From: Lachnospiraceae bacterium MC2017
GTDB taxonomy: Bacteria; Bacillota; Clostridia; Lachnospirales; Lachnospiraceae
Assembly: GCA_000701625.1 (NCBI GenBank)
Contig: JNJK01000010.1
Location: forward strand, 1 to 64,000
Direction of reading: 5' to 3'
DNA length: 64,000 nt
The position numbers were made by a program, and so were the translations under genes. Below are positions 34,688-58,429 of this stretch, piece by piece (positions within the stretch are counted from its first letter, which is position 1; every line of letters begins with the position of its first letter). Below the pieces are notes generated by a model, which saw nothing but the letters and a program-made list of their open reading frames with translations, was not told the DNA's origin and did not search any database.

Positions 34688-35441
34688 CATCATCCATATA
34701 CAGCTCTATGTTTCTGACACATCCAAACATCTCTATTGTTGAACGGATTATCCTACGCGACGTATCTACATAATCCACTATAAATTTGTTATCGCCGTAT
34801 ATCTCCGGATATTCCACACGATCTCCAACCCTGATTTCTGTACCATTATCCGGTACTGACACTTCATCATACGTCGGACTTACCATGCCTGTTTTTATTT
34901 CTTCAACCCAAGGCAGCCGTGGATCTGAATCACCCCACAGGCCAAATTCTATTCGTCGCTTTTTGCCAAATACTTCTGCTTCCACCGTAGCAAAGCGATG
35001 CCGATATTCCATCTTTACTATATATTGCCTGTATTTCTCCAGTGGTCCTTTTACACGGTCTATTCGTCCTGCTTTCGACAGATGCACATAGCTCACGCGC
35101 ATGATCCCATCGTCAAGGATACTCTTTAGAAATTCCTCGTCATTATTACCTATAGGAATGAACACTCTCTGTTCTTCAGTTTTTTCTCTTACACCAAGCA
35201 GTGACGTGAAATGAGGAATTTTTTTTAACGCATCATGTACCTTTTCCGGTTCGTCTGTGTCTATCAACATATATCCCGGAAATAATCTCCGCAACATTAT
35301 CAGGCATTTCCCCTGTCTTCTTCTGACACTTTCATATGCCGGAACTATGCATTTCCTGTATATCCTACTGTCAACTCTGTCTTCAAGCAGCAACTTCATT
35401 TTCTGTTCATCGCCGCTCATTACCTGTATTACGTACCACAT
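34671..35441 (-). CDS. loaP: NusG-paralog transcription antiterminator (LoaP-like)
   Basis: 256 residues. An N-terminal NGN domain (MWYVIQVMSGDEQKMK, then MLRRLFPGYMLIDTD) and a C-terminal KOW domain (GDRVEYPE... NIELYMDDVTKIS). The middle has GIMRVSYVHLSKAGRIDRVKG, LEKYRQYIVKMEYRHR and FGKKRRIEFG. This is the layout of LoaP, which in Firmicutes travels with polysaccharide and polyketide operons and lets polymerase pass terminators after binding a leader hairpin. It faces toward the left glycan cluster, from which the Rpn region now separates it. A GAGGGGG ribosome site precedes the ATG. Confidence 0.85.
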   Translation of the reverse strand: MWYVIQVMSGDEQKMKLLLEDRVDSRIYRKCIVPAYESVRRRQGKCLIMLRRLFPGYMLIDTDEPEKVHDALKKIPHFTSLLGVREKTEEQRVFIPIGNNDEEFLKSILDDGIMRVSYVHLSKAGRIDRVKGPLEKYRQYIVKMEYRHRFATVEAEVFGKKRRIEFGLWGDSDPRLPWVEEIKTGMVSPTYDEVSVPDNGTEIRVGDRVEYPEIYGDNKFIVDYVDTSRRIIRSTIEMFGCVRNIELYMDDVTKIS

Positions 35442-35841: not shown

Positions 35842-38106
35842 TCAAACCTCAAAATCTGCAATCATTACCGGTTTCTTTTGAGTAAAAAATGCAGGCACCA
35901 GCGGTGTTGGGCTTCCGTAGTATGCATCATATTTCTGTGATAAGATTTCGCTGTCTTTGGAACATGCTGATACGATCTTCACTCCTGCTTTTTTTATCAG
36001 AGAAAATATCTCATCTGACAGCTTCCCGTCCGACTCCATCCATTTTTCTTTCTCATTAGGATATAAATAAATCGCCATATCTATATGATCACTATTTTCT
36101 GCAAAGGTATTTATGCGTTGCTCTACCGCTCTCACGAATATATCCGGATGTTCAGACAATTCATTTGCTCCAATACCAAAAATTATCTTTCGTTTCTCAC
36201 CGCGTTTTCTAGTCTCTGCTGAATTTTGAAGGGCTTTAATAGAAACTTTTTGTTCCCAGTATTCTCTGGCTTCACTTCCGGAAAAATTTTCAAGACAAGT
36301 GATATACTTTTCTCTGATATTTTCTGACTGAACTAGCACTCTATCCGCATATACCACTCCGGGTGCAGCCACATAATGCTTCATATTATATATGTCATTC
36401 TTGTCTTCATCTGCAAATTCTTCTGTCTTCTTAAACGGAATATAGATTATCTCCCCTGCATATTTCCTAATTGCTTTTGTGTGAAAAAAAGGCGGAACAG
36501 TGAGACATGGATTAGTCTCATCATAAGGACTCTGTATATACACTACATCAGGACAATGCGTTGAGATATCGTACTCTCTCCAATCTGCTAGATTTAAGTT
36601 TTTTTCATACAGATCACCCTGTGCAGCTTTATCTATATCTTCAGGCGACATGATGATATTTCCGAAATAGTCCTTTTTTAAGAGCGGAAGCGGCACGACA
36701 AAAATATCCACATCGTTTCTCTGCGATTCTAAATCATAAATTTCTCTGAAACCATTCCACTCTTCAGCTCCAATTGGCAGATATAGTATTTCCTTTATTT
36801 GTATTACATTTTCTTCGATTGCATCCTCAACATCGGTCAAGGCTTCCAACGTTGATTCAATCTTCTTTCCATTTGGGTCAAGCAGATTATTCGCATCTCT
36901 CCACAGAGCATCACACAGTTTTTCCAACTCATGTACAACATTTTTTACATGAATATTTTTTTCTCCTTTTTTCTGCTCAAGCAATGTACCAAGGTCGATT
37001 GCAAGCTGCTGTGCTTCGGTAAGTTTCTGTGCTGCATTTTCATAATTTTCATTTTCTGCAGCACATCCGGCATCCACCAACAATTTTTTTATCATTCTTA
37101 CACATTCAGTGGATATACTTCTTATCGAACCTGAGTAATCCTTATCTATAGAATTCAACATTTCTTTTTCAAAGTTGAAACCAGGAATAGAAGCCCCCAG
37201 CAGTTTCTCCATTTCCTTTTTCTGGCCTTCAAAGAATGGATAGTCATGCCCGGTCCATACTTTTTTTATCTCATAATAATTTCCGTACCTTTTTTTCAGT
37301 ACTTTGTTGAAGCTGACCGGCACCGGAATAGTTGTATTTTCAAATGGAAGTCTTATAAATTTTTCGTATAATATCTTATCCTCTCCGGCATCACTTCCAC
37401 GCTTTATGATCCACGGAAAAATCTGTCCGATCCTGTTACTTTTCTCTTTTGGTACCCTTGCCATCTGCTGTTCTGCCAATCGGTACAATGAAACAGCAAG
37501 AGCATAATGAGGTTCATCAATAGAAAAACTACTTCCATATCGCCGATTTATCTCATTTAATTCGCCAATAAGTGCTGCCCTGTTATACTTTTCCTCGATA
37601 ACCAACTGCGCCACAGCATACAGTTTCATCACTTCCTTATCACGTTCTTCTTCCTCATCTGCAGAAGAATACAGATAGTCTTTTATGAAAATATCCACAC
37701 CTGCAAGCCATGGAAAATTATTGTGTTCTCTTAAATATTTCTCATCAAAGCAGATCTTACTGTTATTTACGACCCTTATCAGAAATTCCCAGTGGTCATC
37801 TTTTCGCTCATAATCATGTATCACATAGTTTTCGGGAAGCTCTGCGTCTGCAACAGCTCTGAACCTTTCATAGTCATCACGTTTCATCCCTATGTCCAGA
37901 TCATCATCCCATGGTACAAATCCGCCATGTCGTACCGCTCCGAGCAACGTCCCCCAGTCTGCAAAATATGTAATATTATGTTTTGTACAGATTTTGTCAA
38001 TTTCTCCAAGTACCTCAAGCGTAGCAGCCCACGCCTGCTTTATAGCCGCAGGGATGTAAAATCCATTTCTCACTTCATCCCTGAAAAAATCTGTGTTTAC
38101 CCCCAT
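35842..38106 (-). CDS. LicD-family phosphotransferase fused to a GT-B-like C-terminal region
   Basis: 754 residues. Residues about 25-300 are a LicD domain: YFADWGTLLGAVRHGGFVPW and the acidic WDDDLDIGM. A helical linker with ENAAQKLTEAQQLAIDLGTLLEQ follows. From about 430 a Rossmann-rich region shows VDIFVVPLPLL, DVVYIQSPYD and VPPFFHTKAI. The last 100 residues start RKIIFGIGANELS and end AYYGSPTPL then KKPVMIADFEV. LicD proteins transfer phosphocholine or other phospho-groups from CDP-carriers to sugars. Paralog at 46434-48713. Last gene of the minus-strand operon that starts near 58.35 kb. Confidence 0.86.
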   Translation of the reverse strand: MGVNTDFFRDEVRNGFYIPAAIKQAWAATLEVLGEIDKICTKHNITYFADWGTLLGAVRHGGFVPWDDDLDIGMKRDDYERFRAVADAELPENYVIHDYERKDDHWEFLIRVVNNSKICFDEKYLREHNNFPWLAGVDIFIKDYLYSSADEEEERDKEVMKLYAVAQLVIEEKYNRAALIGELNEINRRYGSSFSIDEPHYALAVSLYRLAEQQMARVPKEKSNRIGQIFPWIIKRGSDAGEDKILYEKFIRLPFENTTIPVPVSFNKVLKKRYGNYYEIKKVWTGHDYPFFEGQKKEMEKLLGASIPGFNFEKEMLNSIDKDYSGSIRSISTECVRMIKKLLVDAGCAAENENYENAAQKLTEAQQLAIDLGTLLEQKKGEKNIHVKNVVHELEKLCDALWRDANNLLDPNGKKIESTLEALTDVEDAIEENVIQIKEILYLPIGAEEWNGFREIYDLESQRNDVDIFVVPLPLLKKDYFGNIIMSPEDIDKAAQGDLYEKNLNLADWREYDISTHCPDVVYIQSPYDETNPCLTVPPFFHTKAIRKYAGEIIYIPFKKTEEFADEDKNDIYNMKHYVAAPGVVYADRVLVQSENIREKYITCLENFSGSEAREYWEQKVSIKALQNSAETRKRGEKRKIIFGIGANELSEHPDIFVRAVEQRINTFAENSDHIDMAIYLYPNEKEKWMESDGKLSDEIFSLIKKAGVKIVSACSKDSEILSQKYDAYYGSPTPLVPAFFTQKKPVMIADFEV

Positions 38107-38132: not shown

Positions 38133-40040
38133 TTAAAGGACTTCCGGATTTTGTATCATTACAGGAATATGTTTTTTTATCGCATCGGTAATTATTGCGT
38201 CAGGATCCCCATATACAGCATCTACCAGTGAAATGATCCCGTCGCACTCTCCCTCTATCATCATTCCTCTATGCTCCTTTACAAATAACTCCAATATTTT
38301 ACTAAAAGAATTAACTGTATTATCTCCTAATGCTTCAGTCAGATTTTCTGGAACCGGCTCATACTTCCATATCATCGCTATGTCTTCCTCATTATCCTTA
38401 AATATATTTATCACGTTTTTTATTTTTTCTACCATTTTATCTTTATACTGAAAAAGTACACTTAATGAGGTCACATACAGGACGATCTTTTTCAGGCTGC
38501 CATCCGAACGGTACATTATTTTTTTCCATTCATCAGGAATTACACGTTCTTCATGTCCTTTACTTGTCTCTGCTGATTGATTATTTTCATTTATATCTTC
38601 ATTTTTTGCATCATTTTCATATTCAACCATTTCACGCATATAATCCTGAATGGTTATTTTCTTTCCTTTTTTTTCGAATTCATCAGCAATGATGCCCGGA
38701 TCGCCATAGTACTCATCCATCTCTCTCTGTATTTTTGTGACTTCTGTTCCTATATCACAGATATTTCCACCCTGTTCTGTGAAGTCTTTTAATATGGATT
38801 CATACTGACTCATAAGTACAGGCGCTACCTCATCAAGTGCCATTTCATCATTTTTGAGAAAGATATCCGGCATCCACCACAATTCGTATTTGTCGCTATT
38901 CTCATAAAAATATTTAAGAACGCTATTTATCTTTGCAGGCACCTTCTCAGAGTGTATCAGCATTTCCCGCATGCTTGTGTGATATAGAACGGCCTTTTTT
39001 TCAGGATTTTTCTTTTTAATTTCGCTATTATATTCTGTCCGTTCCTCAGTTGTTACCTCTTTGTGATAATACCTATCATCCTTAAATTGCTTTGAATAAT
39101 AAGGATAATCATGTAATGCGCTTTCTTGTCTTGGCATTATATAATCATGTCCAAATCTGGCATTTAAAATCGCATCATATCCTATCGGAACAGGTATTGA
39201 AATATACTCAAACGGCTTCAATACAGTATATTCGAAAAAGTCCTTAGGAAACTTCCTAGATCTGTCTTTCACATATTCATCATAACGCGCGACATAGTCT
39301 GCGTCTTCTTCTGTAGTTATACGGCAAACCTGATCGTACAAGATTTCAAGCTGATTCTCTATAGGTCTTTCGTTATTAAATTCATACCCTGTTTCACGCT
39401 GCAGCTCAACAAGTCTCATGGCAACAGCCTGACCCAGAGCATTTCTATCAGACACGATCCCGCCTTCTCCTGTCAATGCCATGAGCTGTCTGTTCATCCC
39501 GATGACTTCATCTATCCTGACTAGCAGATCTAGTATGTATTCCTCCTCGTTAATATTTCTCGGTATGTAATAATATGGGTATATATCAAGACCTGTAACA
39601 AAAGGACACCCATTCCACTTTTTTAAGTGTTCCCTCTCAAATGAAACTGCACTGGCATTTGTGATATGGGTAAAGTTCATGCTATGCCATGTCCTTGTGT
39701 ATGGATTTAGGATATTATATTTATCCTCATACTCTCTTGACAGGATATCTAAAAAATTTACGTAGTCCATGCCGACAAGACCTACATCAACATCATCGTC
39801 CCATGGAATAAAGCCATGCTCTCTCACCGCACCAAGCAATGTTCCATAACAGGCAAAAAGATTGAGCTTATTTTTTTCACATATGGCTATGACATCTTCA
39901 AGAATATCGAGATATGACGCCCATGAGCGTTTCATGACTTCATTTACTGTAAATCCGTTTCTCTCTTCCTGAACCAAAAATTTATCCGGTATTTCCATCG
40001 TTTTCATAGCTTCACCATTTATATATCTTATTCTTTCCAT
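38133..40040 (-). CDS. LicD-family phosphotransferase with two C-terminal repeat modules
   Basis: 635 residues. The LicD domain shows LNLFACYGTLLGAVREHGFIPW and WDDDVDVGL. Two later modules look homologous. The first starts KAVLYHTSMREML and ends DEYYGDPGIIADEF then GKKITIQDY. The second starts KIVLYVTSLSVLF and ends DAVYGDPDAIITDAI then HIPVMIQNPEVL. The same module ends the LicD proteins at 35842 and 46434. The start overlaps the stop of the PRTase fusion gene by 13 bases. Function of the module unknown. Confidence 0.85.
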   Translation of the reverse strand: MERIRYINGEAMKTMEIPDKFLVQEERNGFTVNEVMKRSWASYLDILEDVIAICEKNKLNLFACYGTLLGAVREHGFIPWDDDVDVGLVGMDYVNFLDILSREYEDKYNILNPYTRTWHSMNFTHITNASAVSFEREHLKKWNGCPFVTGLDIYPYYYIPRNINEEEYILDLLVRIDEVIGMNRQLMALTGEGGIVSDRNALGQAVAMRLVELQRETGYEFNNERPIENQLEILYDQVCRITTEEDADYVARYDEYVKDRSRKFPKDFFEYTVLKPFEYISIPVPIGYDAILNARFGHDYIMPRQESALHDYPYYSKQFKDDRYYHKEVTTEERTEYNSEIKKKNPEKKAVLYHTSMREMLIHSEKVPAKINSVLKYFYENSDKYELWWMPDIFLKNDEMALDEVAPVLMSQYESILKDFTEQGGNICDIGTEVTKIQREMDEYYGDPGIIADEFEKKGKKITIQDYMREMVEYENDAKNEDINENNQSAETSKGHEERVIPDEWKKIMYRSDGSLKKIVLYVTSLSVLFQYKDKMVEKIKNVINIFKDNEEDIAMIWKYEPVPENLTEALGDNTVNSFSKILELFVKEHRGMMIEGECDGIISLVDAVYGDPDAIITDAIKKHIPVMIQNPEVL

Positions 40041-42154
40041 GCTCTTACCAACGCATGGCGGAAATAAGGCTTTTTGATATGCTCATAATATCCATTGTCC
40101 AGAACCATCTTTCCATAGAAAAACAATATGTAGTTATTACTTGGGCAGGAATTATAAGCCAAGTTATTAAAGAATAGCCTTAGTTCTTGAGCTTGATCGC
40201 CTGTATGATAGGTTGCGCAAGATAATTTACAATTATTATTTAAAAGGATTCTTTCACTGCCTTTTAGTATGTCAAGCTCCATTCCCTCAGCATCAATTTT
40301 AATAAAAATATTCTCAGAAGAATAATTCCGCAAAAGTGTATCAAGAGTAATTGTAGTATCATTATCTGTTCTACCAGCATATTTTTTTATTATGTGAACT
40401 TTGTCCATCCAATCGGAAAACGTAGCTTTAAGAGCTTTTATCCACTCCTCAGAGCATTCAATTAAATATATTTCTTTTGCTTTCTCGATCACGTCTAAAG
40501 AAATGATGCCTTCAGCTGCACCTACATCTACAAAGATATCACCTTCAGAAAACGAACAATTCTCAGAAAAATAATGATGTGGACTTTCCTCATCCTGTTC
40601 CATAATAAGCTGATTATATTCGCTTTTAATCAACGAACTATCCTTTGGCGGAAAGAAAAGTTTTTTATCCCTGTGTTTCACATATTTCAAGTTCAGATCT
40701 TGTTCTTCATATACAGTGACTTTTGATTCGTCATACTTATTTATGAAATCGTATGGATAAAGAACCAGTTCTCCGCGTTTCTTAAGAAAACCAACCTCCT
40801 TTTCAAATCCATCCATATCTAAGTCATTATTGATTATGTTATTGAAGAGCTCTTTTTTGGTATTAAAGTGTTCTTCATTCCAAGCGGGTGTAGAAACCTT
40901 GCTTGCTGCGGTAAGAATCACGTCGTGGATGCTAGCATCAATAAGTGTTTCTAATTCCTTCAAATTTGAGCTTAGAAAATAATCCGGCAGGTTAGATATA
41001 TCGTTATTTATTATTTCTCTAGCCTTGTAAATATAATTGGATATCCATGAACCAAGACTGCTATTGTCTATAGAGAATTGACATACTTCATCAAAAATTT
41101 TTGAGAGATTGCTCAAGTATTCATTAAACAGATAACAAGCTGATTCGTGCGTTGATAAATTAATAATCTCAAAAGATCGATCGTGAAAATTATACATGAT
41201 CGATAGTGCATTATAAGCTTTTTCTTCTATAGCTTTCCCGAGTTGCATAATACGCGCATAGACATCAAAACTGCTATCCCGGTTATAGAATCTGTTGCTT
41301 CCTGTACAATAAACTGGTTTGTTGGTACTAGCGTATATATATTGTGCCTGCCCATCATCACTTTCAATAAAGAGTGCAGCTTCACTGTTTTGATAAATGT
41401 TTGCTTTGAAAACTCCATGTAAACCAAGACGTATCCTGGTTTCTTTGTCAGGAACGTCTAACATTATAAGGCTCTTATACTTAACATTATTCTTTTTAAG
41501 CCATGATTCTGTTGCTTCCCTGTATTTTTCCAATCTGCTGGTTACAATTGCACCAATTTCATATTCCGGGATAAAAAGAGGCGTTGCATTCTCTATGAAA
41601 TTAAGATATTTAGGACCATCATCATTTTCTTCTTCCGTAGGATCTACGCAAAGTACTCCATCTAAATCCAAACAACTTTGCGTTATTATGAGATGATTCA
41701 TAATGTTCCATTCAAAAACCCTCGGTTGATTGCATATCTCAAAATAAAGATCAACAAAAGAAGTTGATTCATCTGTTACATATATGCAGCAATATAAAGC
41801 CTCAATCTTGCGGGAAAGATGTTCGGTAATAAACTGTTTAACTCTATTTATACTTGCTCCGGTAAAACAACTATCATCTACTATTAATGCCTTTTTGTAC
41901 TCGTTTAGAAATTTGATTTTTCTAGTTGTAAAAGAGTTTATAGAAGGGCATGTGAGATCATTTATTGTTATAAGAGGTTTATTAAGCAACAATGCTATGA
42001 TAGTTGCAGGGAGCATTCCACTCCTGGGAACTCCAATAATGAGATCCACATCTTTAGGAATAATAGATAATTTTGAACGTATAGTTTTATTCAATTGATC
42101 AATACTCCTATAATTCATCAGAATCGCCTCCTTATAGGGTGTTTTCGGAGTCAC
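40028..42154 (-). CDS. Phosphoribosyltransferase-HAD-FkbM methyltransferase fusion
   Basis: 708 residues in three recognisable parts. Residues about 10-140: a type I phosphoribosyltransferase with LIIGVPRSGMLPATI and the PRPP loop ALIVDDSCFTGAS. Residues about 155-270: a HAD-like part with CLDLDGVLCVDP as the first acidic motif and IGAIVTSRLEKYR. Residues from about 500: an FkbM methyltransferase with DIFVDVGAAEG, IYLIECSEEW and FIKIDAEGMELDILKG. A helical region of over 200 residues lies between. The combination suggests handling of a phosphoribosyl-linked group and methylation of a glycan. The frame may start at 42154 or at the internal MNYRSID. Overlaps the next gene. Confidence 0.82.
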   Translation of the reverse strand: MTPKTPYKEAILMNYRSIDQLNKTIRSKLSIIPKDVDLIIGVPRSGMLPATIIALLLNKPLITINDLTCPSINSFTTRKIKFLNEYKKALIVDDSCFTGASINRVKQFITEHLSRKIEALYCCIYVTDESTSFVDLYFEICNQPRVFEWNIMNHLIITQSCLDLDGVLCVDPTEEENDDGPKYLNFIENATPLFIPEYEIGAIVTSRLEKYREATESWLKKNNVKYKSLIMLDVPDKETRIRLGLHGVFKANIYQNSEAALFIESDDGQAQYIYASTNKPVYCTGSNRFYNRDSSFDVYARIMQLGKAIEEKAYNALSIMYNFHDRSFEIINLSTHESACYLFNEYLSNLSKIFDEVCQFSIDNSSLGSWISNYIYKAREIINNDISNLPDYFLSSNLKELETLIDASIHDVILTAASKVSTPAWNEEHFNTKKELFNNIINNDLDMDGFEKEVGFLKKRGELVLYPYDFINKYDESKVTVYEEQDLNLKYVKHRDKKLFFPPKDSSLIKSEYNQLIMEQDEESPHHYFSENCSFSEGDIFVDVGAAEGIISLDVIEKAKEIYLIECSEEWIKALKATFSDWMDKVHIIKKYAGRTDNDTTITLDTLLRNYSSENIFIKIDAEGMELDILKGSERILLNNNCKLSCATYHTGDQAQELRLFFNNLAYNSCPSNNYILFFYGKMVLDNGYYEHIKKPYFRHALVRAWKE

Positions 42155-42217: not shown

Positions 42218-43195
42218 TCAGTAACCTGTATCGATATCAAACATCTTCCCGGACATTTTTCTCTTTATCAATTCCTGCTTCAATATTTCTTCCTGATCCT
42301 TATATAATGGATAATCATGCATATTTCTGCATATTATCGGTGTCATGTAAGTATCCCCATAAGAACTTCTCAGGTATTCGTGGTAATGCCTCGGAACAGG
42401 AACTGTTATAGGTCCAAACGGTATCCTGATCAGATCCTCAAATCGCGCCTTTTCGTATATTTGGTTATATTCCCCACTGATAAATCTTAAACACGGATAT
42501 GCAGCATACGTACTATTACTGCCGTCATATTTTTTACAGATTTCGTGTATAAGCTCGTGCATTTGCATTTTTAGAGAACGTGTTTTTTCAAGAGCTGTGC
42601 CTGTAACATTTTTTACCCGGCTTAACATTTCATCAATTTTTGAAGCATCCTCTTTTCCATTTTCAATATTTCTGAATACTTCCAGCGCTTTTAATGCTAC
42701 ACTCATCTGTTCTTGTTGTTCTTTATCAAGTTCGTCATTCGGTGCCATATCATCCAAAACATCGATATCCACTCCTAAAATGTATGGACACCCATGATAT
42801 GTTTCCATTCTTTCGTCATCCGTACTCAGTTCCAAGCTATTTACTACACGGCTTATCAGATTTTCATAATCTGCATCCAAATGATCTTCTTTAATTATCA
42901 AACCATCCCAAAGTCTTCCTTCTCTTGCGGCGGCAGCAAAAATCTCATAGTCTCTTCTAAACATCGTAATGTCTATATCATCATCCCAGGGGATAAAACT
43001 ACCATGTCTAACTGCTCCGAGAAGTGTCCCCCAATTTGCAAAATATTGCACACCAAGTTCAAGACATAGAGCATCTATCCGAACCAAAACTTCCAGTTCC
43101 GCTGCCCAATAGCGCTTCATCATAGTATTTATCCTGAATCCACCTATTTCTTCGGCCTCGAACCATTCTTTCTCAAATTGAATCAAGCTCCCCAT
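42218..43195 (-). CDS. LicD-family phosphotransferase
   Basis: 325 residues, a stand-alone LicD protein: VQYFANWGTLLGAVRHGSFIPW, WDDDIDITM, VDIDVLDDMAP and a C-terminal VPVPRHYHEYLRSSYGDTYM. It lacks the long C-terminal extensions of its three paralogs. It lies 20 bases after the PEP mutase fusion gene, so it is the best candidate to use the CMP-linked product of that enzyme. Acceptor unknown. Confidence 0.9.
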   Translation of the reverse strand: MGSLIQFEKEWFEAEEIGGFRINTMMKRYWAAELEVLVRIDALCLELGVQYFANWGTLLGAVRHGSFIPWDDDIDITMFRRDYEIFAAAAREGRLWDGLIIKEDHLDADYENLISRVVNSLELSTDDERMETYHGCPYILGVDIDVLDDMAPNDELDKEQQEQMSVALKALEVFRNIENGKEDASKIDEMLSRVKNVTGTALEKTRSLKMQMHELIHEICKKYDGSNSTYAAYPCLRFISGEYNQIYEKARFEDLIRIPFGPITVPVPRHYHEYLRSSYGDTYMTPIICRNMHDYPLYKDQEEILKQELIKRKMSGKMFDIDTGY

Positions 43196-43215
43196 ATGAT
43201 CTCACTCCATCAAGC

Positions 43216-44517
43216 CTATATCTCGTCAATAAGCGTTATGATCTGCTTTATCGGCATAAGCGCGTTATCAATTTCATACGCCCTATGATTCCGCAAGATA
43301 CTCTTTGCCGCATTTTCCATTGCCGGGAACGCAGCACGTAAAAGCTGATTCGCATAGATCACTATATTCGCTCCATGACTTATCAGCTCCTTCTCAGTTA
43401 CAGTATTATATGAACTCGGAACAACCACAATAGGAGTTTTCTTATCTGTCTTTCTAAACTTATCGCAAAATTCAAAAATCTCATCCGGATTCGTTTTCCG
43501 ACTGTGAATCATTATCCCGTCAGCACCGGCATCACGAAATGCATATGCTCTTTCTAATGCATCATCCATTCCTCGCTCAAGTATCAAAGATTCTATTCTC
43601 GCGATGATCATAAAATCTTCCGATAACTGCGCTTCTTTCCCTGCCTTGATCTTTTGACAAAAGTGCTCAATAGTATCCTGCGTCTGGACTACATCATTTC
43701 CAAACAAACTGTTTTTCTTAAGTCCTGTCTTATCTTCTATAATAACCGCCGAAACTCCCATTCTTTCAAGTGAACGAACATTATACACAAAATGCTCAAT
43801 AAAGCCTCCAGTATCACCATCAAAAATAATCGGTTTGGTTGTCACTTCCATTACATCATCGACTGTACGGAATCGGCTTGTCATTTCAACCAATTCAATA
43901 TCCGGCTTTCCCTTTGCAGTACTGTCGCATAATGAACTGATCCACATAGCATCAAACTGATCTATTGCTCCGCCATCAGCGACTACAGTTTTCTCAACTA
44001 TGAGTCCGGTAAGACCATTATGAACTTCACATGCTTTTACAATCGGTGCAAGTTTTAGGAGTTTTCTCAGTCTCCCTCGCCTAAGTTCGGGAATAGACAA
44101 TTTTTCCTTCATCTGCTTTTGAATACGTGCTATATTTTCGTTATATGAATAGGGTATATCAATAAGACGTCCACCATATTTATTGGTGGCTTCAAGAATA
44201 TTTTGGCGTATAGCCTGCATTGATTCTGATTCCCAGTTATCGCCATGTACTATATAATCCGGTCTCAATTCCTGAATGACCTTATCGTACATTATTTCTT
44301 TTTGGACAATAACATTCGCAACACCCGGAATTTTTTTGCACATCTTAACGCGCTCAGCAGTAGATTTCAGAGGGAAGCTATTATACTTGATCATCTGCTC
44401 ATCAGATAAAACTCCGACTGTTACTTCCCCCAGCTTTTGTGCCTCTTTTATTATGTTTAAATGACCTTCATGAATATAGTCTGTACAAAAACATGTATAA
44501 ACTGTTTTCATTTTCAT
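43216..44517 (-). CDS. aepX: Cytidylyltransferase-phosphoenolpyruvate mutase fusion
   Basis: 433 residues. The N-terminal 135 residues are a nucleotidyltransferase with the HxGH motif in DYIHEGHLNI and the KSTAERVKM motif. Residues 150-433 are a PEP mutase/isocitrate lyase-superfamily barrel with IIFDGDTGG and EDKTGLKKNSLFG; the Glu, Lys and Asn of this loop match those of PEP mutase. PEP mutase turns PEP into phosphonopyruvate, the entry to all common phosphonates. Fused to a CTP-type transferase it should feed a CMP-phosphonate to LicD enzymes. No phosphonopyruvate decarboxylase or transaminase is in the window. Confidence 0.88.
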   Translation of the reverse strand: MKMKTVYTCFCTDYIHEGHLNIIKEAQKLGEVTVGVLSDEQMIKYNSFPLKSTAERVKMCKKIPGVANVIVQKEIMYDKVIQELRPDYIVHGDNWESESMQAIRQNILEATNKYGGRLIDIPYSYNENIARIQKQMKEKLSIPELRRGRLRKLLKLAPIVKACEVHNGLTGLIVEKTVVADGGAIDQFDAMWISSLCDSTAKGKPDIELVEMTSRFRTVDDVMEVTTKPIIFDGDTGGFIEHFVYNVRSLERMGVSAVIIEDKTGLKKNSLFGNDVVQTQDTIEHFCQKIKAGKEAQLSEDFMIIARIESLILERGMDDALERAYAFRDAGADGIMIHSRKTNPDEIFEFCDKFRKTDKKTPIVVVPSSYNTVTEKELISHGANIVIYANQLLRAAFPAMENAAKSILRNHRAYEIDNALMPIKQIITLIDEI

Positions 44518-44532
44518 CCCCTCAAAAAATTA

Positions 44533-46374
44533 TTACCGTCTCAAATGATCCCTTACAGCCAAAAACTCATTATCATATATAGAAAGATCACATATGTCAT
44601 AATGATAATTGTTTTTCCAGCATACATAGCCAAAACTCATCTGATCACGAGCACTTTCTGTCATTATTTCTTTGAACCAGTCTCTCATTACTGTATTTAG
44701 CTTCGGATCATGATTTGATCTCACGAGACACGCTGTATCACATAATCCAATGTCATCCCGGAAACCATCTTCCTTATATTTTTCAATCTGCTTCTGTAAT
44801 GTTCCTGCTTCTGCTTTCTTATTGTAAATTAATGCTGCAGCCTCCTGCTCTATGGTATCCCTCCTCGGATGTGAAAAGCACAACATACTGCTGTCTCTAC
44901 CATATCTAATAAGAATATTTTGTAGTGGTCCGGTAATTCTCATCTTCCCATCCACCCAAATGGTATAATCGTATTCCTTCAGATACTCTGCAGGCTGCAT
45001 TTTTACCTTGCGCGCCAACTGAAGTTCAGTTAGTTTTTCAGCATTATCTAAAACCACTATTTTCCAATGTTCAGATTTCATAGAATGATTATCTGTAAAA
45101 CATATGTAATCCCACACCGGATTCACTACTTCCGGCTCATTTAATTGATCATACCCTCCTGTGATGCACGTATACACTGCGCACTTTCCATTAAACCAAT
45201 TAGATATTATTTTGTTCCTGTAATATCTATTGAAATACACCTCGTGTACATGTGCCCTGTCTCTGCTTTCGATTTCTGCTTTATTTCCATACTCTTCTTT
45301 CAATCTGACTATTTCTGTATTTTCACACATATACAAAGAACATATACCGAGCCACAGCATCTCATCTTTGTATCGTTCTAAAAAAAGATCCCTGATGCTT
45401 TTCTTTAGTTTATTCGAATTCTCCGGGTCATTTTTAAATATCAATGCCATTGCTTCCAGCGAAAGCGTTCCCCCATCGTACTCTGAAATAAATCTCTCTC
45501 TCCCTGTTCCGGAAATAATTTCATATCCTAAAAACAGTATTTCAAACACTCGCTTAACGATTTCATCGACATTTTTACACTTAGAAAAACTACTTATTTC
45601 TATTTTTGCTTCGAGCTCTTTTGTTTCCACATATGAGACCAGGCAACTCACCAATAAATCATACTCTCTGAGCTTCGATATTTCTTTCAGTCTGCGTGTA
45701 CCCTCTTTAATGTCTCCTTTGTCCAACAAATATACTATCTGTGGCAATTCTCTGTTCCGTATATCTCTCAGCCTGCTGATCAATCCACTCGCAATTGATG
45801 TTTCAGCTTCAGAAGGCATATTATAGTTTTCTGAGAATACCTTTGCATTCTTCATCTGACTTGAGTCAGACCATTCCCGATAGTATGCTCGCAGATACCA
45901 CCTCTCCGGATCAGATACAGCACCTATTTTGAATCCTTTTATCCGGAATTCCGTACATTCAGACTCTGCATAATATGTGTATCCGGTAAATAAATCTTCC
46001 CGCCATTTTACGTCTTCCCTCGTAATGATCATTGCTTCATCAACGATCGAAGCCTCTTTTATTTCTGTTTTTTCAGCATCTTTAGACGTTCCAAGCATCT
46101 TAAATTCAGGATGATCATTAAAAATCTGAAGTATATCTTCTATAAATTTCGTCGAATGTATAAAGACATACTCTCTTAAATAAACCTTTATATCTGCATC
46201 AGATGATTCCATCGCAGCATTATATGCAGCATAAATACTATCTGCTTCACCTATCGTGATAACATCAGTTTCGCAGTTAAGCGGTACACGTATCCGCTCC
46301 AAATATTTAAGACATTCCCGCAAGTATACAGTCTCTTTCCAACAAACGATAAAGGCAACTTTGCACTTGTCCAT
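44533..46374 (-). CDS. StrF-like glycosyltransferase fused to a TOD1/MUCI70 (DUF616) glycosyltransferase domain
   Basis: About 613 residues from the ATG at 46374 (MDKCKVAF). The N-terminal 230 residues resemble the StrF-like GT domain of the two genes upstream (VAFIVCWKE, NAAMESSDADIKVYL). Where those have YLHQDVFI this has YLREYVFI, so a likely metal or donor site is lost. A helical part follows. From about residue 400 a second domain shows CAVYTCITGGYDQL, DYICFTDNHS, DYTIWVDGKMRI and MLCFSHPRR, the DUF616 glycosyltransferase pattern. The C-terminal domain may be the active one. Confidence 0.78.
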   Translation of the reverse strand: MDKCKVAFIVCWKETVYLRECLKYLERIRVPLNCETDVITIGEADSIYAAYNAAMESSDADIKVYLREYVFIHSTKFIEDILQIFNDHPEFKMLGTSKDAEKTEIKEASIVDEAMIITREDVKWREDLFTGYTYYAESECTEFRIKGFKIGAVSDPERWYLRAYYREWSDSSQMKNAKVFSENYNMPSEAETSIASGLISRLRDIRNRELPQIVYLLDKGDIKEGTRRLKEISKLREYDLLVSCLVSYVETKELEAKIEISSFSKCKNVDEIVKRVFEILFLGYEIISGTGRERFISEYDGGTLSLEAMALIFKNDPENSNKLKKSIRDLFLERYKDEMLWLGICSLYMCENTEIVRLKEEYGNKAEIESRDRAHVHEVYFNRYYRNKIISNWFNGKCAVYTCITGGYDQLNEPEVVNPVWDYICFTDNHSMKSEHWKIVVLDNAEKLTELQLARKVKMQPAEYLKEYDYTIWVDGKMRITGPLQNILIRYGRDSSMLCFSHPRRDTIEQEAAALIYNKKAEAGTLQKQIEKYKEDGFRDDIGLCDTACLVRSNHDPKLNTVMRDWFKEIMTESARDQMSFGYVCWKNNYHYDICDLSIYDNEFLAVRDHLRR

Positions 46375-46433
46375 TACACCTACTCCCTTAAAATTTGTTC
46401 TGCATTTCTCATGTATCACGACAAAAAGATTAT

Positions 46434-48713
46434 CTACTCAGCAGCACTCATCAGCATAACCGGTATTCCCGCGTTTCTGCATCTGTGCGCGAGATTTCCT
46501 GCGCAGCCATAATACGCATTCACTTCATTGATATGACTGTCAACTGCTCTTCTTTCATCAAAAATGACATCTGTATCTGATCTTATTGCGTCAAGTACAG
46601 AGCAATATTCCTTCCAGAGCCCGCTGTCTATCTTTTCAACACTATCTATCCCCGCTTCCGGAGAAACGATACATGCTATTTTTTCTGATGCTTCACTAAT
46701 GGTCGCCACCGAATCTTTCAGCTTTTTTAATGCCTTTTCCCCATACTGAAGCAAATACGATGCGGAGTATCTAAAAACCAATACCTTTCGTCCTGCAATC
46801 ATTTTATTCCATTTTTCTGAAAAGCCTCTATCTTCGAAATATTGCGTTTTCGCTTCCTGCTGTCTTACTTTGATCTTTTCCTCCCAATATTCCTGCCTTC
46901 CGGAAAGCTCTGTCAGAAAATCAACATATAATTTCTTTTTAACTTCGGAATCCACTTCTACTTCGTCCGCATATACTATCACCGGTTGTTCAATGAGCAG
47001 CTTCATAGTTATGCATCCCCTGTCAGTATCACTCACAGGATCCATGCATTCAAAAGGAGGTACATATACAAGTTTATTTGTATGTTTCCTTAAATTCTCA
47101 GAATAAAAGAAAGGTGGTACGTCCATTGTCGTACAGTATCCATCGTAGGGATAATCCGTATATATGATGTCAGGATGATTTTTATCAAAGTCATATGTGT
47201 TTATATCTGTGATCTCGACATCTTCCGGCAAACTATTCTTTTCATCACATATCACACCTTTTATATGTGCCAGCCCATCTCCAGAATAATACGGAACCGA
47301 GATCACACTGACTTCAGCATCCGGTCTTGAAACATATTTTTTATATGTAGCTTCCAAACATTTCCACCATGAACCCTTGAATGATAAAAATAGTACTTTT
47401 TCTTTTTTGTTCCTGACCGTCTCATCAACTTTCCTACGAATAATCTCAATCTGCTTTTCAAGCAGTAAAATACGCTCTTCTTTTAAGTCTTCACCACATT
47501 GGTATACATATTCACAATACTCTTCAAGAGTATGTACTGCTTCTTCGCTTTCCGGGACATATTTTTCGAGCATTGTTCCGAGATTTATTGCCAGATTTTG
47601 ACATCCTTCTAAAAGTTTCAGCACAAGATTAATATTTTCCGTCTTTGATACATTTCTTATCTGACCATGTGCTTTTTCGATGATATCGATCAATTCTGTA
47701 CATTGCTGACTTAGATTGTCATTCCTTATCTCCGGCAATTCTATTTTTTTATCAAGTGTATACCTAAAGGGATTTTCCCCTTTGCTTTTCGCAAGGATTT
47801 CTTCCTGATCTGTGTACACAGGATATCTGTGTATTCCACCATCCTTATGAATTTCCATAAAATTACCGTATTCTATCTGAAGAACTTCTTCATAATATGC
47901 CGGCACCGGAATATATACATTTTCAAATGGAAACATTATCACATCATCAAAAAGTTTACGACTATATCTGTGGTCATGATTCGCAACCCAAAAGGGCATC
48001 ATCGCTACAGTTTCTGCCTTATCAGACGGGTACATACAGAAGAATTTCCACATGAGAAATAAAAGTTCACTTATTATATCTCCCTTTCTGTGCAATATGG
48101 TGTGATTCTGTCTCTCTATGTCAGCCAATAGTCTCCTACATTCATATGTATCCATCTGCCCGGCCTCTATGAGATTTTTTGCATCCCATATGGTCTGTAT
48201 CATATGTCTGCGTTCATCTTCACTTTTCTCATCATCTGACACGCCATCCAGCGGAAATATATCGATTCCTATGGCATATGGACACCCATAGTACTCTCTC
48301 AAATGTTCCTCATTAAAATTAATGGCATGTCCGCTGATAATCTTTCCAACAGGTTCATCATTTCCATCCTCTTTAAGCGGGTTTCTGATCCAGTATTCTT
48401 TCGGCAGCTCCTCCTCTGCCACCTCAAAAAATCTGATCCAGTCATGTCTCAGCATGCATATGTCCATGTCATCATCCCAAGGGATGAATCCTCCATGCCT
48501 CACAGCTCCCAAAAGAGTTCCACAATCCGCATACCACTGTATGTTATATTTCCTGCACACACGATCTATTTCACTTAAGACTTTAAGTTCACAAGCCCAA
48601 TACCTCTTCATCATAGAAGGCACAAAAAAGCCCTCACGTACTTCATCGAAAAAGTATGTCGGATCAAATCTCAAATCCTTTAATTCCGTATGCACCATGA
48701 TAAACGTCCTCAT
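46434..48713 (-). CDS. LicD-family phosphotransferase fused to a GT-B-like C-terminal region
   Basis: 759 residues, with the same build as the gene at 35842. The LicD domain shows IQWYADCGTLLGAVRHGGFIPW and WDDDMDICM. The helical linker shows LLEGCQNLAINLGTMLEKY. A Rossmann-rich part shows VLFLSFKGSWWKCLEA, DIIYTDYPYDGYC and VPPFFYSENL. The terminal module starts KVLVFRYSASYLLQYG and ends NAYYGCAGNL then IPVMLMSAAE. It overlaps the next gene upstream by four bases. Confidence 0.86.
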   Translation of the reverse strand: MRTFIMVHTELKDLRFDPTYFFDEVREGFFVPSMMKRYWACELKVLSEIDRVCRKYNIQWYADCGTLLGAVRHGGFIPWDDDMDICMLRHDWIRFFEVAEEELPKEYWIRNPLKEDGNDEPVGKIISGHAINFNEEHLREYYGCPYAIGIDIFPLDGVSDDEKSEDERRHMIQTIWDAKNLIEAGQMDTYECRRLLADIERQNHTILHRKGDIISELLFLMWKFFCMYPSDKAETVAMMPFWVANHDHRYSRKLFDDVIMFPFENVYIPVPAYYEEVLQIEYGNFMEIHKDGGIHRYPVYTDQEEILAKSKGENPFRYTLDKKIELPEIRNDNLSQQCTELIDIIEKAHGQIRNVSKTENINLVLKLLEGCQNLAINLGTMLEKYVPESEEAVHTLEEYCEYVYQCGEDLKEERILLLEKQIEIIRRKVDETVRNKKEKVLFLSFKGSWWKCLEATYKKYVSRPDAEVSVISVPYYSGDGLAHIKGVICDEKNSLPEDVEITDINTYDFDKNHPDIIYTDYPYDGYCTTMDVPPFFYSENLRKHTNKLVYVPPFECMDPVSDTDRGCITMKLLIEQPVIVYADEVEVDSEVKKKLYVDFLTELSGRQEYWEEKIKVRQQEAKTQYFEDRGFSEKWNKMIAGRKVLVFRYSASYLLQYGEKALKKLKDSVATISEASEKIACIVSPEAGIDSVEKIDSGLWKEYCSVLDAIRSDTDVIFDERRAVDSHINEVNAYYGCAGNLAHRCRNAGIPVMLMSAAE

Positions 48714-49816
48714 CGCAAATTTTTGATTGCTTCTTTGACCTTGGTTCTATAATCATCGTATATCACAATATCCATCAGCAGGTTGATCGCTTCTTCAGAT
48801 ATATCTCCTCTTTCAATAAGTTTCTTCGGTGCAATTTCCGGTTCAATATCAAAAGCAAGCCGCATAAGCATGAATCGTATTTTTTGATACTCATATATGA
48901 GTGTATCCGTATCCCGACCTTCTTTTCCCAGACATTTTTTTCCGGCTTTCCATTCCTCCGATATGATCGCTGCGATCACATATAAGGAAAATAGATCATT
49001 ATCCTTATTTTTATATGCATGCCACTCCGATACAAGTCCAACCGCTTCCATATACCGTCCTGTATCAAAGAGTCTCCTGATTTCAGGCAGGATATTTCTG
49101 ATGGATATCATATCTTTTTTGTATTCATCATTCGTTTCTTTCTGTTCGTCGCTATCACCATATTCAAAATATCTTGAATATGTCTCACAAAAGATCTTTC
49201 TATACTTGTCATAGTTTTCTAGATTCAGTATCCCATTATCATGAAAAGTCCAGGGGTGCTCCTGATATGGAACCGCAACCTTATAGCCTGCTTCCATGAA
49301 TTCCATCGCCTGGGATATGTCATAGAAATCCCAACCATCAAACCTGTCCTCCCGCCAGGTCAGATCTTTGCTCGTAGCCATTAATAATCCATCCACTGCC
49401 CATACATAACTAAGTTTATTAAATCCGGAATCAGCCAGTCGTACTACGTAACCGTAACACTCATACACTACGCCTCTATCCCAGTAGAAATGACACCTTG
49501 CGTCTGCCGGAAGATCTGTACTACCTACCACTCCCAGCATTCCTATATTTTCATCCTCACAGAAAATTCTTATGATGTCTGTAATAAAATTTCTGTTTAT
49601 TATAAATACATCCTGATGAAGATAAACTTTGTATTTGGCATCGGTGGAGCGCATCCCGGTATTATAACCTGCGCACATATTTTTTGCGCCAATTATAGGG
49701 ATTATCTCAATAGTAATCCCCGGTGGAACTACCAAGAACCTGATATAAACTGTACATTCATCCAAATACTGCTGATCATTTGAACAGATTATAAAAGCAA
49801 CTTTTTTGTCGTTCAT
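48710..49816 (-). CDS. StrF-like glycosyltransferase
   Basis: 368 residues. The N-terminal 230 residues are a StrF/Glyco_tranf_2_5-type domain: KVAFIICSNDQQYL, MCAGYNTGM, KYKVYLHQDVFII, DGLLMATSKDLTW, REDRFDGWDFYDISQA and HPWTFHDNGILNLENY. The rest is helical and may be a tetratricopeptide-like tail. Closely similar to the first third of the protein at 49844, so a tandem duplication is likely. Confidence 0.84.
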   Translation of the reverse strand: MNDKKVAFIICSNDQQYLDECTVYIRFLVVPPGITIEIIPIIGAKNMCAGYNTGMRSTDAKYKVYLHQDVFIINRNFITDIIRIFCEDENIGMLGVVGSTDLPADARCHFYWDRGVVYECYGYVVRLADSGFNKLSYVWAVDGLLMATSKDLTWREDRFDGWDFYDISQAMEFMEAGYKVAVPYQEHPWTFHDNGILNLENYDKYRKIFCETYSRYFEYGDSDEQKETNDEYKKDMISIRNILPEIRRLFDTGRYMEAVGLVSEWHAYKNKDNDLFSLYVIAAIISEEWKAGKKCLGKEGRDTDTLIYEYQKIRFMLMRLAFDIEPEIAPKKLIERGDISEEAINLLMDIVIYDDYRTKVKEAIKNLR

Positions 49817-49843
49817 TCTTTGTATCCTTCTTATAATGAAGCT

Positions 49844-52627
49844 TCACAATCCGAGAGAGCGACGAAGATTACATAAATCCGTTTCATCAAAAGCCTTATC
49901 TGCTTTTACTCTTTCGTATATTTTTCCTGTTATATCATTGCGATCTGTACCGCTGTACCCTCCAACTGTCGATACTGCTGATCTAATGACACTGACATAT
50001 ACTTCCTTATTTCTCTTAGCAAGATCAAATTCTGAGCATATTTTCAATAATTCATCTATGCGGTCTCCAATGTCTTCAAAGGGATTGTCCCTATCGATCA
50101 CAGACGTCACCAGCACCTTCGGAATTTCCGCTGCCTTTCTGCCATCAATGAGTCTCAGCAAAAATTCTTTTTCACCTGCATTACCTAATCCTTCATCAAA
50201 TTTGCCGTAAGAATAAATGCTATTCCTTCTTATCACAGCAGTTGAAAGCGCCGGATAAAAGGATTTTGCAATTTCATAAAAAATATCACCTGATGTCCTG
50301 CTCTTATCTATATCAACATCCGGCCATATCCGCGCCGCTCCCATTGCCTTTTCCTCGCGTCTTTCATCTGCATATACAAATTCAATATTTTTGTCCGATT
50401 CCAGCAGCGCCGCAGCACCGTATACAAAATCCGAATCATATGAAACTCCGGCTGTGGTAAATACCAGATAGTCACCATTCGTTTTTTCTATTCCGGCATT
50501 ATTCCTTTGTGGCCTGCTTGATCCACCAAGTTCCACTAGACAGATTTTTTCATCATATGATTTATCAATGATCTCTTTCTCTTCCTCTGTTAACATATCC
50601 GCAACTACTACTATCTCCGTCGTCGGATATATCTGATTTCTGATATCCTCAATAGTTTTTTTCAACTCATCAGGATTTCCATTTGACAATAATATAAAGC
50701 TCACTTTTTTCCGACCATCAAAGACAGCCTTATTTTGCGGTACTCCGACTCTTATTTCAGGATCCTTTGTACATATATAAGCCTTAAATGTATTCGGAAG
50801 TGCAACATTCATTGCCAGATCATCTGACAGATATTTATTATCGATCATTCCAACATGAAACCCATTATCAATTAATCTGTCAATAAGGTCATAGGATGCA
50901 TAACACCTTCTGTTGTGCTCGCCACCAAACACCGCCCAGTGCAGCATCCTTTCTTCCGCATCAATCGGTGCATACTCCAGCGTCTCTGTGATTCCTATAC
51001 CAATACTATTTAAAACTATCAGAAATCCATCTTTTTTCAGTATTCTATTGAGTTCACGCATGGCTGTGATATCATCTTCAAATCTGTTGAATGTATCAAA
51101 CATAACGATCACATCACAGCTTTCAGTATCAAGTGTAAAAAACTCCCTAAGTTCATCTGCTTCATGCTGCCCTGAAACGTAACTCTCCAGCGTGATAAAC
51201 TCAGCTACTCTATCCTGTGTACAAACCCACTGTCTCAAAATTGGTGAATACGACAGCAATGCAACTCTTTGATCTTTCCGATCCGAAAGACTTTTTATAA
51301 GCAGCGCAGCAATCCGCTCATATAGAGAAGCTCCACAAGAAGCACAATGTACTTCTTTTTCTGACTCTCCTGTATATGCAGCGGTCCACCATGCAAAAGT
51401 ATGTTTTTTTCTTACTTTTTTATTTGAATTTGCAAAGGTCAATACACTTGTTTCATTTCCACAGACAGGACAGATAAAGTTTTTTCTTTCTTCTCTCTTT
51501 CCTATCGGCAGTCCCTCTGAGATCAGGCGTTCGTATACCTTTGTCTTATCAAATATATATTTATCTATCGCGCTTATAATCGCGTAAACTGTATATTCCT
51601 GACTCATAAGTCCTGCTTTTAACTGAGAAACATAGTCCTCTACCGGACGATCAAACTGAGCTCTGTAAAGCAGGAATCGTATATTTATGTATTTCTCCCG
51701 TACTTCCTCATATTCACTGCCTCTTGCCCAAAATGTATAACTATTCTCATTTTTTTCATTTCCATGAATTATCAAGAGTTCCCGCAGAATTTCCTGATCA
51801 TTATCATTATGTACACGACATAGCTTTATATACGGATATTTTTCAAGTGCTCTTTTTACTCTGCCATGTTTCATGTCTCTATAGATCAATTCAGACATTT
51901 TTCGGGCAGTGTCTTTATTTTTTTTATACTCTTCTATAAAAGGATCACTTAGATCACACCGAGTATCAAAGCCATACTTTTCTCCATAGGTCTCACAAAA
52001 AGTCCTGCGATAATGTTCATATCTGTCAAGTCCCAAATGACCTACATCATGAAAACACCAGGGACTTTTCTGGTATGGAACTGCTATTTTATATCCTTTG
52101 TCCGTGAATTCCATGCTATGCGACAGATCATAGAAATCCCAACCGTCAAAGATATCTTCTCTCCATTCTACATCCCTGTTTGTGATCATCAGCATACCAT
52201 CTATTGCAGACACATAATTCAGCCCTTTTTCATTTTCATACATGCTGATACCGCCATCTTTACCATTAAAGAATAATGTGCCTCCGACATCCCAGCAGTT
52301 ATACGCATTCGCATCAGTCGGAATCGTCTTTACGCCGATTATTCCGATCAAACCAACCTTTTCATCCAATGAAAATGCATCCAGCATATCCTGGATAAAA
52401 TTACTGTTGAGGATAAAGACATCCTGATGGAGATAGACCTTGTACAGGGCATCAGATGAATGCATTCCGGCATTGTAGGCTTCACAGATACTGTTTGCCT
52501 CACGGATCGTGATGATGTCAGTCTCAAAACCATCCGGAATACGCAGACAATTAATATAATATGAGCATTCTCGCAGGTATTGGTCATCATTTGTCGCAAT
52601 GATAAAAGCTATCTTGTGATCATTCAT
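49844..52627 (-). CDS. Three-domain protein: StrF-like GT, methyltransferase, GT2
   Basis: 927 residues. Residues 1-240: StrF-like domain (KIAFIIATNDDQYL, YKVYLHQDVFIL, SPWCFHDVGHLGL). Residues about 390-620: a zinc-ribbon pair FICPVCGN and HCASCGASLYER, followed by a class I methyltransferase-like core with DVIVMFDTFNRFEDDI, LNRILKKDGFLIVL and a late DRLIDNGFHVG. Residues about 640-830: a GT2-like domain with KVSFILLSNGNPDEL, QRNNAGIEKTNGDYLVF and EFVYADERRE. Its stop overlaps no downstream gene; its start overlaps the GT92 gene stop by eight bases. It may build and methylate a glycan in one polypeptide. Confidence 0.82.
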   Translation of the reverse strand: MNDHKIAFIIATNDDQYLRECSYYINCLRIPDGFETDIITIREANSICEAYNAGMHSSDALYKVYLHQDVFILNSNFIQDMLDAFSLDEKVGLIGIIGVKTIPTDANAYNCWDVGGTLFFNGKDGGISMYENEKGLNYVSAIDGMLMITNRDVEWREDIFDGWDFYDLSHSMEFTDKGYKIAVPYQKSPWCFHDVGHLGLDRYEHYRRTFCETYGEKYGFDTRCDLSDPFIEEYKKNKDTARKMSELIYRDMKHGRVKRALEKYPYIKLCRVHNDNDQEILRELLIIHGNEKNENSYTFWARGSEYEEVREKYINIRFLLYRAQFDRPVEDYVSQLKAGLMSQEYTVYAIISAIDKYIFDKTKVYERLISEGLPIGKREERKNFICPVCGNETSVLTFANSNKKVRKKHTFAWWTAAYTGESEKEVHCASCGASLYERIAALLIKSLSDRKDQRVALLSYSPILRQWVCTQDRVAEFITLESYVSGQHEADELREFFTLDTESCDVIVMFDTFNRFEDDITAMRELNRILKKDGFLIVLNSIGIGITETLEYAPIDAEERMLHWAVFGGEHNRRCYASYDLIDRLIDNGFHVGMIDNKYLSDDLAMNVALPNTFKAYICTKDPEIRVGVPQNKAVFDGRKKVSFILLSNGNPDELKKTIEDIRNQIYPTTEIVVVADMLTEEEKEIIDKSYDEKICLVELGGSSRPQRNNAGIEKTNGDYLVFTTAGVSYDSDFVYGAAALLESDKNIEFVYADERREEKAMGAARIWPDVDIDKSRTSGDIFYEIAKSFYPALSTAVIRRNSIYSYGKFDEGLGNAGEKEFLLRLIDGRKAAEIPKVLVTSVIDRDNPFEDIGDRIDELLKICSEFDLAKRNKEVYVSVIRSAVSTVGGYSGTDRNDITGKIYERVKADKAFDETDLCNLRRSLGL

Positions 52628-53795: not shown

Positions 53796-53807
53796 ACTTT
53801 CCCCTTT

Positions 53808-54491: not shown

Positions 54492-54502
54492 ATTTTCTCC
54501 TC

Positions 54503-55219: not shown

Positions 55220-55243
55220 GCTTCCATCACCTCACTCAAATGA

Positions 55244-57126: not shown

Positions 57127-57138
57127 GCTTTTCTCCTC

Positions 57139-58347: not shown

Positions 58348-58387
58348 AGCGCTCCCCCTTGCATCAAACAACTATCCTCATTTATTT

Positions 58388-58414
58388 TTATCGGAACAAA
58401 GTACAAAAAATTCA
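58388..58414 (-). promoter_or_regulatory. Sigma-28-like promoter before the LicD/PEP mutase operon
   Basis: Minus strand TGAATTTT-N11-TCCGATAA. The -35 box is at 58414-58407 and the -10 box at 58395-58388. Compare TAAAGTTT-N11-GCCGATAA for flagellar sigma-28. It lies between the flagellin terminator and the first operon gene, with a leader of about 35 bases. It would place the operon in the late flagellar regulon. Confidence 0.65.
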
Positions 58415-58429
58415 ACAGTTGGGTACATT

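Follow-up and report, generated by a model that had tools for sequence, protein, structure and literature searches.

The stretch of DNA that we analysed (hereafter the window) comprises 64,000 nucleotides of contig JNJK01000010.1 of Lachnospiraceae bacterium MC2017, a rumen organism, and carries, at 43216-44517 on the minus strand, a 433-residue open reading frame (ORF) that appears in the ORF listing as a single fused gene. Its product passes the phosphoenolpyruvate (PEP) mutase equivalog profile TIGR02320 with 412.2 bits (cut-off 319.55) and its N-terminal part matches PF01467 (CTP_transf_like) with 53 bits against a cut-off of 21, which bears out the fusion of a PEP mutase to a cytidylyltransferase proposed in a preliminary description of this DNA. 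An identical copy (100%) of the protein is found in Lachnospiraceae bacterium NK4A144 (L093). The gene belongs to an island that runs along one strand, from flagellins through glycosyltransferases to LicD genes and the fusion itself. Listed from the flagellin end, its features are:

60690-61544, minus strand: flagellin 2 (PF00669 in the genome search), followed by a 14-pair terminator-like stem at 60663-60632
59608-60555, minus strand: glycosyltransferase of family 2, situated between flagellins 1 and 2
58498-59358, minus strand: flagellin 1, the presumed glycan carrier (PF00669, 150.2 bits; PF00700, 98.9 bits)
57139-58371, minus strand: probable glycosyltransferase, since it resembles its paralogue at 55244-56434, the DUF3880 protein; relatives of one kind are matched by both
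56434-57126, minus strand: ORF of 230 residues (ORF listing)
55244-56434, minus strand: DUF3880/Glyco_trans_1_2 glycosyltransferase
54503-55219, minus strand: DUF4422 protein
53808-54491, minus strand: ORF of 227 residues, with no match in an NCBIfam search
52620-53795, minus strand: GT92-type glycosyltransferase
49844-52627, minus strand: multidomain glycosyltransferase/methyltransferase
48710-49816, minus strand: glycosyltransferase (Glyco_tranf_2_5)
46434-48713, minus strand: LicD-family protein of 759 residues (PF04991, 125.8 bits)
44533-46419, minus strand: glycosyltransferase-like protein (Glyco_tranf_2_5 and TOD1/MUCI70)
43216-44517, minus strand: the fusion, with an N-terminal Fom1-type cytidylyltransferase-like domain (residues ~3-138) and a C-terminal PEP mutase domain (residues ~150-431)
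42218-43195, minus strand: LicD-family phosphotransferase of 325 residues, immediately downstream of the fusion (PF04991, 113.1 bits)
40028-42154, minus strand: phosphoribosyltransferase-like and FkbM methyltransferase-like protein (PF05050 over its cut-off, PF00156 under it)
38133-40040, minus strand: LicD-family protein of 635 residues (PF04991, 86.5 bits)
35842-38106, minus strand: LicD-family protein of 754 residues (PF04991, 104.8 bits)

The LicD partners claimed for the fusion are thus in place, one directly downstream and three more nearby, and the glycosyltransferase genes lie next to flagellin and run in the same direction, as in a flagellin glycosylation island. The flagellins are upstream of the fusion on the same strand, the nearest about 14 kb away, and terminator-like stems follow both of them. 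A sigma-28-like pattern had no match in the window (1.23 expected), and a sigma-70 scan of 43000-62000 gave 63 matches where 65.4 were expected. Just past the last LicD gene, at 34671-35441 on the minus strand, lies a LoaP-like antiterminator gene (110.4 bits, below the cut-off of 125); together with the stems after the flagellins, it makes antitermination of long operons conceivable. Elsewhere, two divergent flagellins in which a large insert containing HELMH occupies the middle, and which resemble flagellinolysin, are encoded at 62551-63999 (minus strand, continued in L041) and at L041:1783-3681 (plus strand). Genes at 1759-5579 (minus strand) resemble a nucleotide-heptose pathway, presumably GmhA, HddC/GmhB, an epimerase and HddA, and an ORF inside a glycan cluster (22875-24158, minus strand) resembles a group II intron reverse transcriptase.

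The PEP mutase domain was aligned to the mussel enzyme (1m1b) and 19 positions were compared. Fourteen are identical, including D115, K116 and S123 as well as D58, D85, D87, E114, K120, N122, R159 and H190, which we take to be the catalytic positions of 1m1b. The preliminary description named the loss of PEP mutase residues in a structural model as grounds for abandoning its proposal; in this alignment the presumed catalytic residues are all kept, while five of the positions examined (45, 47, 192, 212 and 240) differ. Two of the five (S195 and R340 of the window protein) are invariant across 41 aligned relatives. The EDKX5NS motif of PEP mutases (Rice et al., 2019; PMC6697681) is present as EDKTGLKKNS. 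Throughout the genome (G000; 4.26 Mb in 56 contigs, 99.98% complete, with the window on contig C9), the TIGR02320 search returned this one PEP mutase, a second PF13714 match staying under its cut-off.

A PEP mutase needs a pulling step, normally phosphonopyruvate decarboxylase (Ppd), and the absence of this enzyme from the window had been considered a puzzle. The whole-genome search indeed placed no Ppd match on contig C9, but it revealed a remote Ppd on contig C5 (positions 6140-7219; TIGR03297, 479 bits, cut-off 312.5), which answers the puzzle, and adjoining it an aminoethylphosphonate (AEP) transaminase (AEPT; TIGR03301, 421.9 bits, cut-off 360.8). The genes stand in the order AEPT, LicC/PntC-like nucleotidyltransferase, Ppd, the first two directly before the third. 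The pathway genes are therefore not clustered together, with the fusion on C9 and the others on C5; since C5 holds Ppd, AEPT and a PntC-like gene, the ordinary AEP route is complete, split over two loci. Of the two possibilities originally raised, remote decarboxylase genes leading to AEP and a new phosphonate that is cytidylylated directly, the first accordingly stands, and a decarboxylase-free route is rejected by the presence of Ppd. A fusion of PntC-like and iron alcohol dehydrogenase domains, as in a hydroxyethylphosphonate branch, was also sought in this genome and gave just 28-33% identity matches to its single parts.

The same pairing of enzymes holds in relatives. In a family sample, 31 of 299 genomes had a PEP mutase over the cut-off; among these 31 together with G129, which lies just under it, Ppd was found in 31 of 32 genomes (the exception being G087), versus none of 27 genomes counted as lacking PEP mutase, seven of which have weak matches to it (E up to 1e-20 for Ppd). 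A second sample of 30 genomes reached via other loci (25 flagellin-bearing and five hand-chosen) contained Ppd in 29, in 28 of them over the cut-off, and none in G719. G087 (locus L061) and G719, with a PEP mutase and no Ppd passing the search, are candidates for a decarboxylase-free route, or reflect assembly gaps. After the Ppd operon of L039 (11371-19167) lies a gene set resembling a Wadjet-type defence system.

We consider it fairly probable that a working PEP mutase feeds this ordinary, split AEP pathway and that LicD proteins pass AEP to sugars on flagellin. The fusion, whose activity we infer from its sequence, would convert PEP to phosphonopyruvate; the remote Ppd would decarboxylate the latter and so supply the pull; the adjacent AEPT would form 2-aminoethylphosphonate and the adjacent PntC-like enzyme CMP-AEP, the putative LicD donor; finally, the LicD transferases of the island would transfer the phosphonyl group of AEP onto sugars that its glycosyltransferases would assemble for flagellin, the presumed acceptor. 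This reading draws on the genes, their profile scores and aligned residues, the genome-wide co-occurrence, the single PEP mutase of the genome, the presence in the island of four of the genome's six LicD genes and a repeated linkage to flagellar genes (see below), and has a precedent in the AEP found on a flagellin (Hensbergen et al., 2022; PMC8861647). Against it stand the lack of linkage between the AEP genes and the flagellin island in this genome, the distance and the stems that separate the fusion from the flagellins, the five differing PEP mutase positions, a C5 nucleotidyltransferase that is nearer LicC overall, and the fact that most of the PEP mutase loci examined have no flagellar genes.

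This last point favours an alternative that we regard as unlikely, in which a different cell-surface polymer receives the AEP of the split pathway and the fusion lies in a glycan region next to flagellin by chance. In a wider sampling, none of 39 PEP mutase loci matched flagellar queries, indicating that the flagellar link is not general, and in another set of PEP mutase loci flagellar matches occurred only in L046, L053, L100, L130, L143 and L164, those in L046, L143 and L164 some 8-10 kb off. The window also contains a large separate glycan cluster, and two of the genome's six LicD genes lie outside the flagellin island. To assess the linkage, we scanned 50 of 80 loci of fusion relatives, plus G177 and G000, with Flagellin_N, a profile that also finds FlgL-type genes; it matched in 27 of 52 genomes, all of which were then searched for PEP mutase positions. 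In nine of the 27, PEP mutase and a flagellin-type gene share a contig and are no more than 20 kb apart (0.95 expected). With two genomes left out, G000 as the index case and G177 because its linkage had led to its selection, three of 25 genomes are linked at 10 kb (0.5 expected, P 0.013), seven at 20 kb (0.87 expected, P 1.6e-5) and eight at 30 kb (1.21 expected, P 1.3e-5), under a null that uses rounded genome sizes and treats genomes as independent, relatedness being ignored. With G684, G697 and G705 also left out, the counts become one of 22 (0.41 expected, P 0.34), five (0.74 expected, P 6.7e-4) and six (1.03 expected, P 3.9e-4) at the same distances; the 10-kb excess is then gone, and what is left of it falls between 10 and 30 kb. 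The proximity excess thus varies with the distance chosen, which again suits the polymer alternative, but linkage is above expectation at both 20 and 30 kb, and in all ten of the 27 genomes with linkage at up to 30 kb, a flagellin-type gene is on the same strand as the PEP mutase. On a tree of the 80 fusions, the linked label (11 rows, including G697 at 38 kb) needs seven changes, at least four of them forced by well-supported branches, which also argues against chance, although the label is clustered as well (1 of 500 shuffles as low). The flagellar connection suggested for the window therefore does recur, in some other genomes.

Individual loci also speak against another polymer as the destination of AEP. 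In Lachnospiraceae RUG096 (L100), a single strand encodes FlgK, FlgL, FliW, Ppd, a PntC-like enzyme, AEPT, a methyltransferase-like protein and the fusion, followed by FliD, FliS, an FlgN-like protein, flagellin, LicD and a further flagellin, such that the whole AEP set is placed between FliW and FliD (FlgK, FliW, FliD, FliS, flagellin and LicD have Pfam support, FlgN is under the cut-off and FlgL is a name assigned on a Flagellin_N match). In Velocimicrobium porci (L215/L216), FlgK, FlgL, FliW, FliD, FliS, flagellin and glycosyltransferase-like genes lead into AEPT, a PntC-like gene, a methyltransferase-like gene, Ppd and the fusion, all on one strand except for one ORF, so that the AEP set lies downstream of flagellin in the FlgK run. 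Butyrivibrio sp. FCS014 (L213/L214) has a run that stretches from FlgK as far as two flagellins and goes on with glycosyltransferase-like genes, LicD genes, the fusion, a PntC-like/iron alcohol dehydrogenase fusion and Ppd, broken by three ORFs on the opposite strand; the alcohol dehydrogenase fusion points to hydroxyethylphosphonate rather than AEP. Ppd and LicD are found beside FliD-FliS-flagellin in G688 and G697, with the fusion farther off. The small methyltransferase-like gene recurs beside flagellar phosphonate genes (L100:9243-9983, L215:4504-5268, L219:5629-6351) and could methylate the phosphonate. Another recurring cassette, at L218:4991-8865 with parts in L053, L220 and L222, encodes an epimerase-like protein, a DUF6564-like one and an NAD(P)-binding 'GLGSVG' protein (Pfam was run on L218 only). 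L218 and L053 also have a phosphoesterase, and Ppd is present in L218, L220 and L222; no AEPT was seen in the cassette, and it perhaps represents another phosphonate branch.

The N-terminal domain of the fusion raises a separate question, that of which enzyme activates the phosphonate. Residues 3-138 (136 residues) match the Fom1 cytidylyltransferase domain (structure 5x3d) with 101 bits. HxGH is kept as HEGH at residues 16-19, with H16, G18 and H19 invariant in a 41-row alignment, and HGxxW is kept as well, implying that the domain is under constraint. The GISST motif of Fom1, which we assume to bind the phosphates of CTP, is lost, YNENI taking its place in the alignment to 5x3d, and with this loss the fused domain may not be the activating enzyme. 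GISST is replaced in Bacillota, Methanobrevibacter and other gut rows of the alignment of relatives; among the rows aligned, an intact motif (GISST or GISSS) occurs only in Fom1, Alteromonadaceae and Methanomassiliicoccaceae, a distribution confounded by descent that offers few evolutionary contrasts. We counted neighbouring genes at loci flanked by 7.5 kb or more on either side, setting aside two rows without an N-domain motif. With a loose profile of our own making, which sugar nucleotidyltransferases may match as well, a separate NTP-transferase-like ORF was found at 56 of 79 altered-motif loci, a match only inside the fusion ORF at 12 and none at 11, versus an ORF at one of six intact-motif loci. 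Three of those 11 loci (L062, L130 and L190) have a stand-alone Fom1-type domain whose motif is intact. These ORFs and stand-alone domains near altered fusions suggest that other domains do the activation in altered-motif systems, a comparison that involves few independent lineages and our assumed role for GISST. Intact-motif Fom1-type domains also occur in longer proteins without PEP mutase (L130:11306-12868 and L113:2979-4574), the remainder of the L130 protein looking like radical SAM.

The alternative, that the fused cytidylyltransferase is active and itself activates AEP, phosphonopyruvate or some other phosphonate, nevertheless has arguments in its favour, beginning with the match to 5x3d and the two conserved motifs. 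Under a stricter PntC-like threshold, a separate PntC-like ORF lies near only 29 of 79 altered fusions, versus none of six intact ones, a difference that is weak on its own, and Fom1, with the same cytidylyltransferase-PEP mutase architecture, makes CMP-HEP (PMC6697681). We nonetheless judge this alternative improbable, given the replacement of GISST, the loosely defined NTP-transferase-like ORFs and intact stand-alone domains at other altered loci, and the Ppd and PntC-like enzyme of this genome; the second possibility raised at the outset, that the fusion cytidylylates a new phosphonate directly, is not supported, since Ppd and AEPT are present and GISST is missing. In this genome, activation probably falls to another enzyme, the fused domain probably having been kept for some other role.

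The C5 nucleotidyltransferase would be the activating enzyme in our preferred reading, in which LicD carries AEP. It matches LicC (1jyk, 134 bits) better than Tde-PntC (6pd1, 45 bits). Glu104 of Tde-PntC corresponds to Asp105 in LicC (PMC6697681), and the C5 enzyme has Glu at this position; at the position of LicC Asp192 it has Asp, as in LicC. With Glu at one distinguishing position and Asp at the other, it is mixed by residues, and it is AEP-like by neighbourhood, between AEPT and Ppd. LicD proteins are best known from the phosphocholine pathway, and this, with the closer match to LicC, could mean that those of the island transfer phosphocholine or another phosphate ester, unrelated to phosphonate. 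We find this improbable in view of the neighbourhood of the C5 enzyme, the lack of any PF01633 match in the genome at E up to 0.01, which weakens phosphocholine as cargo as far as choline kinases of this one family are concerned, and the preference for AEP of Ari-PntC, which is likewise described as closer to LicC than to Tde-PntC (PMC6697681).

More broadly, it is quite possible that some Lachnospiraceae have a dedicated system of flagellar phosphonylation, in which PEP mutase, Ppd, a branch enzyme (the transaminase leading to AEP, or the iron alcohol dehydrogenase leading to hydroxyethylphosphonate in Butyrivibrio sp. FCS014), a cytidylyltransferase and LicD would have been moved repeatedly into flagellin operons, C-P groups would coat the filament and the Fom1-like domain would have been repurposed from catalysis to another role. 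If so, there are gut and rumen bacteria whose own genes let them decorate their flagella with phosphonates, and their flagellin would look altered to the host, phages and proteases; a producer-side system would stand beside the AEP, as yet unexplained, of Clostridioides difficile flagellin, and a widespread type of PEP mutase fusion, normally interpreted as having an active cytidylyltransferase, could carry an altered one. What looks new is the recurrent tie of phosphonate genes to flagellin operons in some relatives and, judging from the alignments, the altered fused domain, as in gut relatives. Among the matches listed in a search of the open-access literature, which leaves most subscription journals outside, we found no report of PEP mutase in flagellar operons.

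The fusion architecture is already known, with 23.6% of PEP mutases reported as fused to PF01467 (PMC6697681). The fusion shares with Fom1, of fosfomycin biosynthesis, the domain order, the N-domain match to 5x3d, HxGH and the PEP mutase domain, and differs from it in the absence of GISST, the glycan and flagellin context and the separate PntC-like enzyme in the genome. The Pnt phosphonyl-tailoring pathways (Rice et al., 2019; PMC6697681) likewise combine PEP mutase, Ppd, AEPT, a PntC-like enzyme and LicD, whereas here the genes are spread over two loci and LicD and PEP mutase accompany flagellins; a term search of the main text of that paper finds no 'flagell' string. For Prochlorococcus SB, phosphonates have been proposed on surface glycoproteins (PMC8931226), in another organism and with other glycan machinery, a flagellin cluster not being mentioned in the parts of that report considered here. 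Closest in outcome is the type A glycan of C. difficile flagellin, which carries 2-AEP (Hensbergen et al., 2022; PMC8861647), so that the 'new kind of flagellin decoration' of the preliminary description was too strong a claim. The authors cite C. difficile as pepM-negative, leave the source of AEP open and speculate that other gut bacteria may supply it. Common to both cases would be 2-AEP on a flagellin glycan, established there and proposed here; in the present genome a gene of the pathway is itself linked to flagellin.
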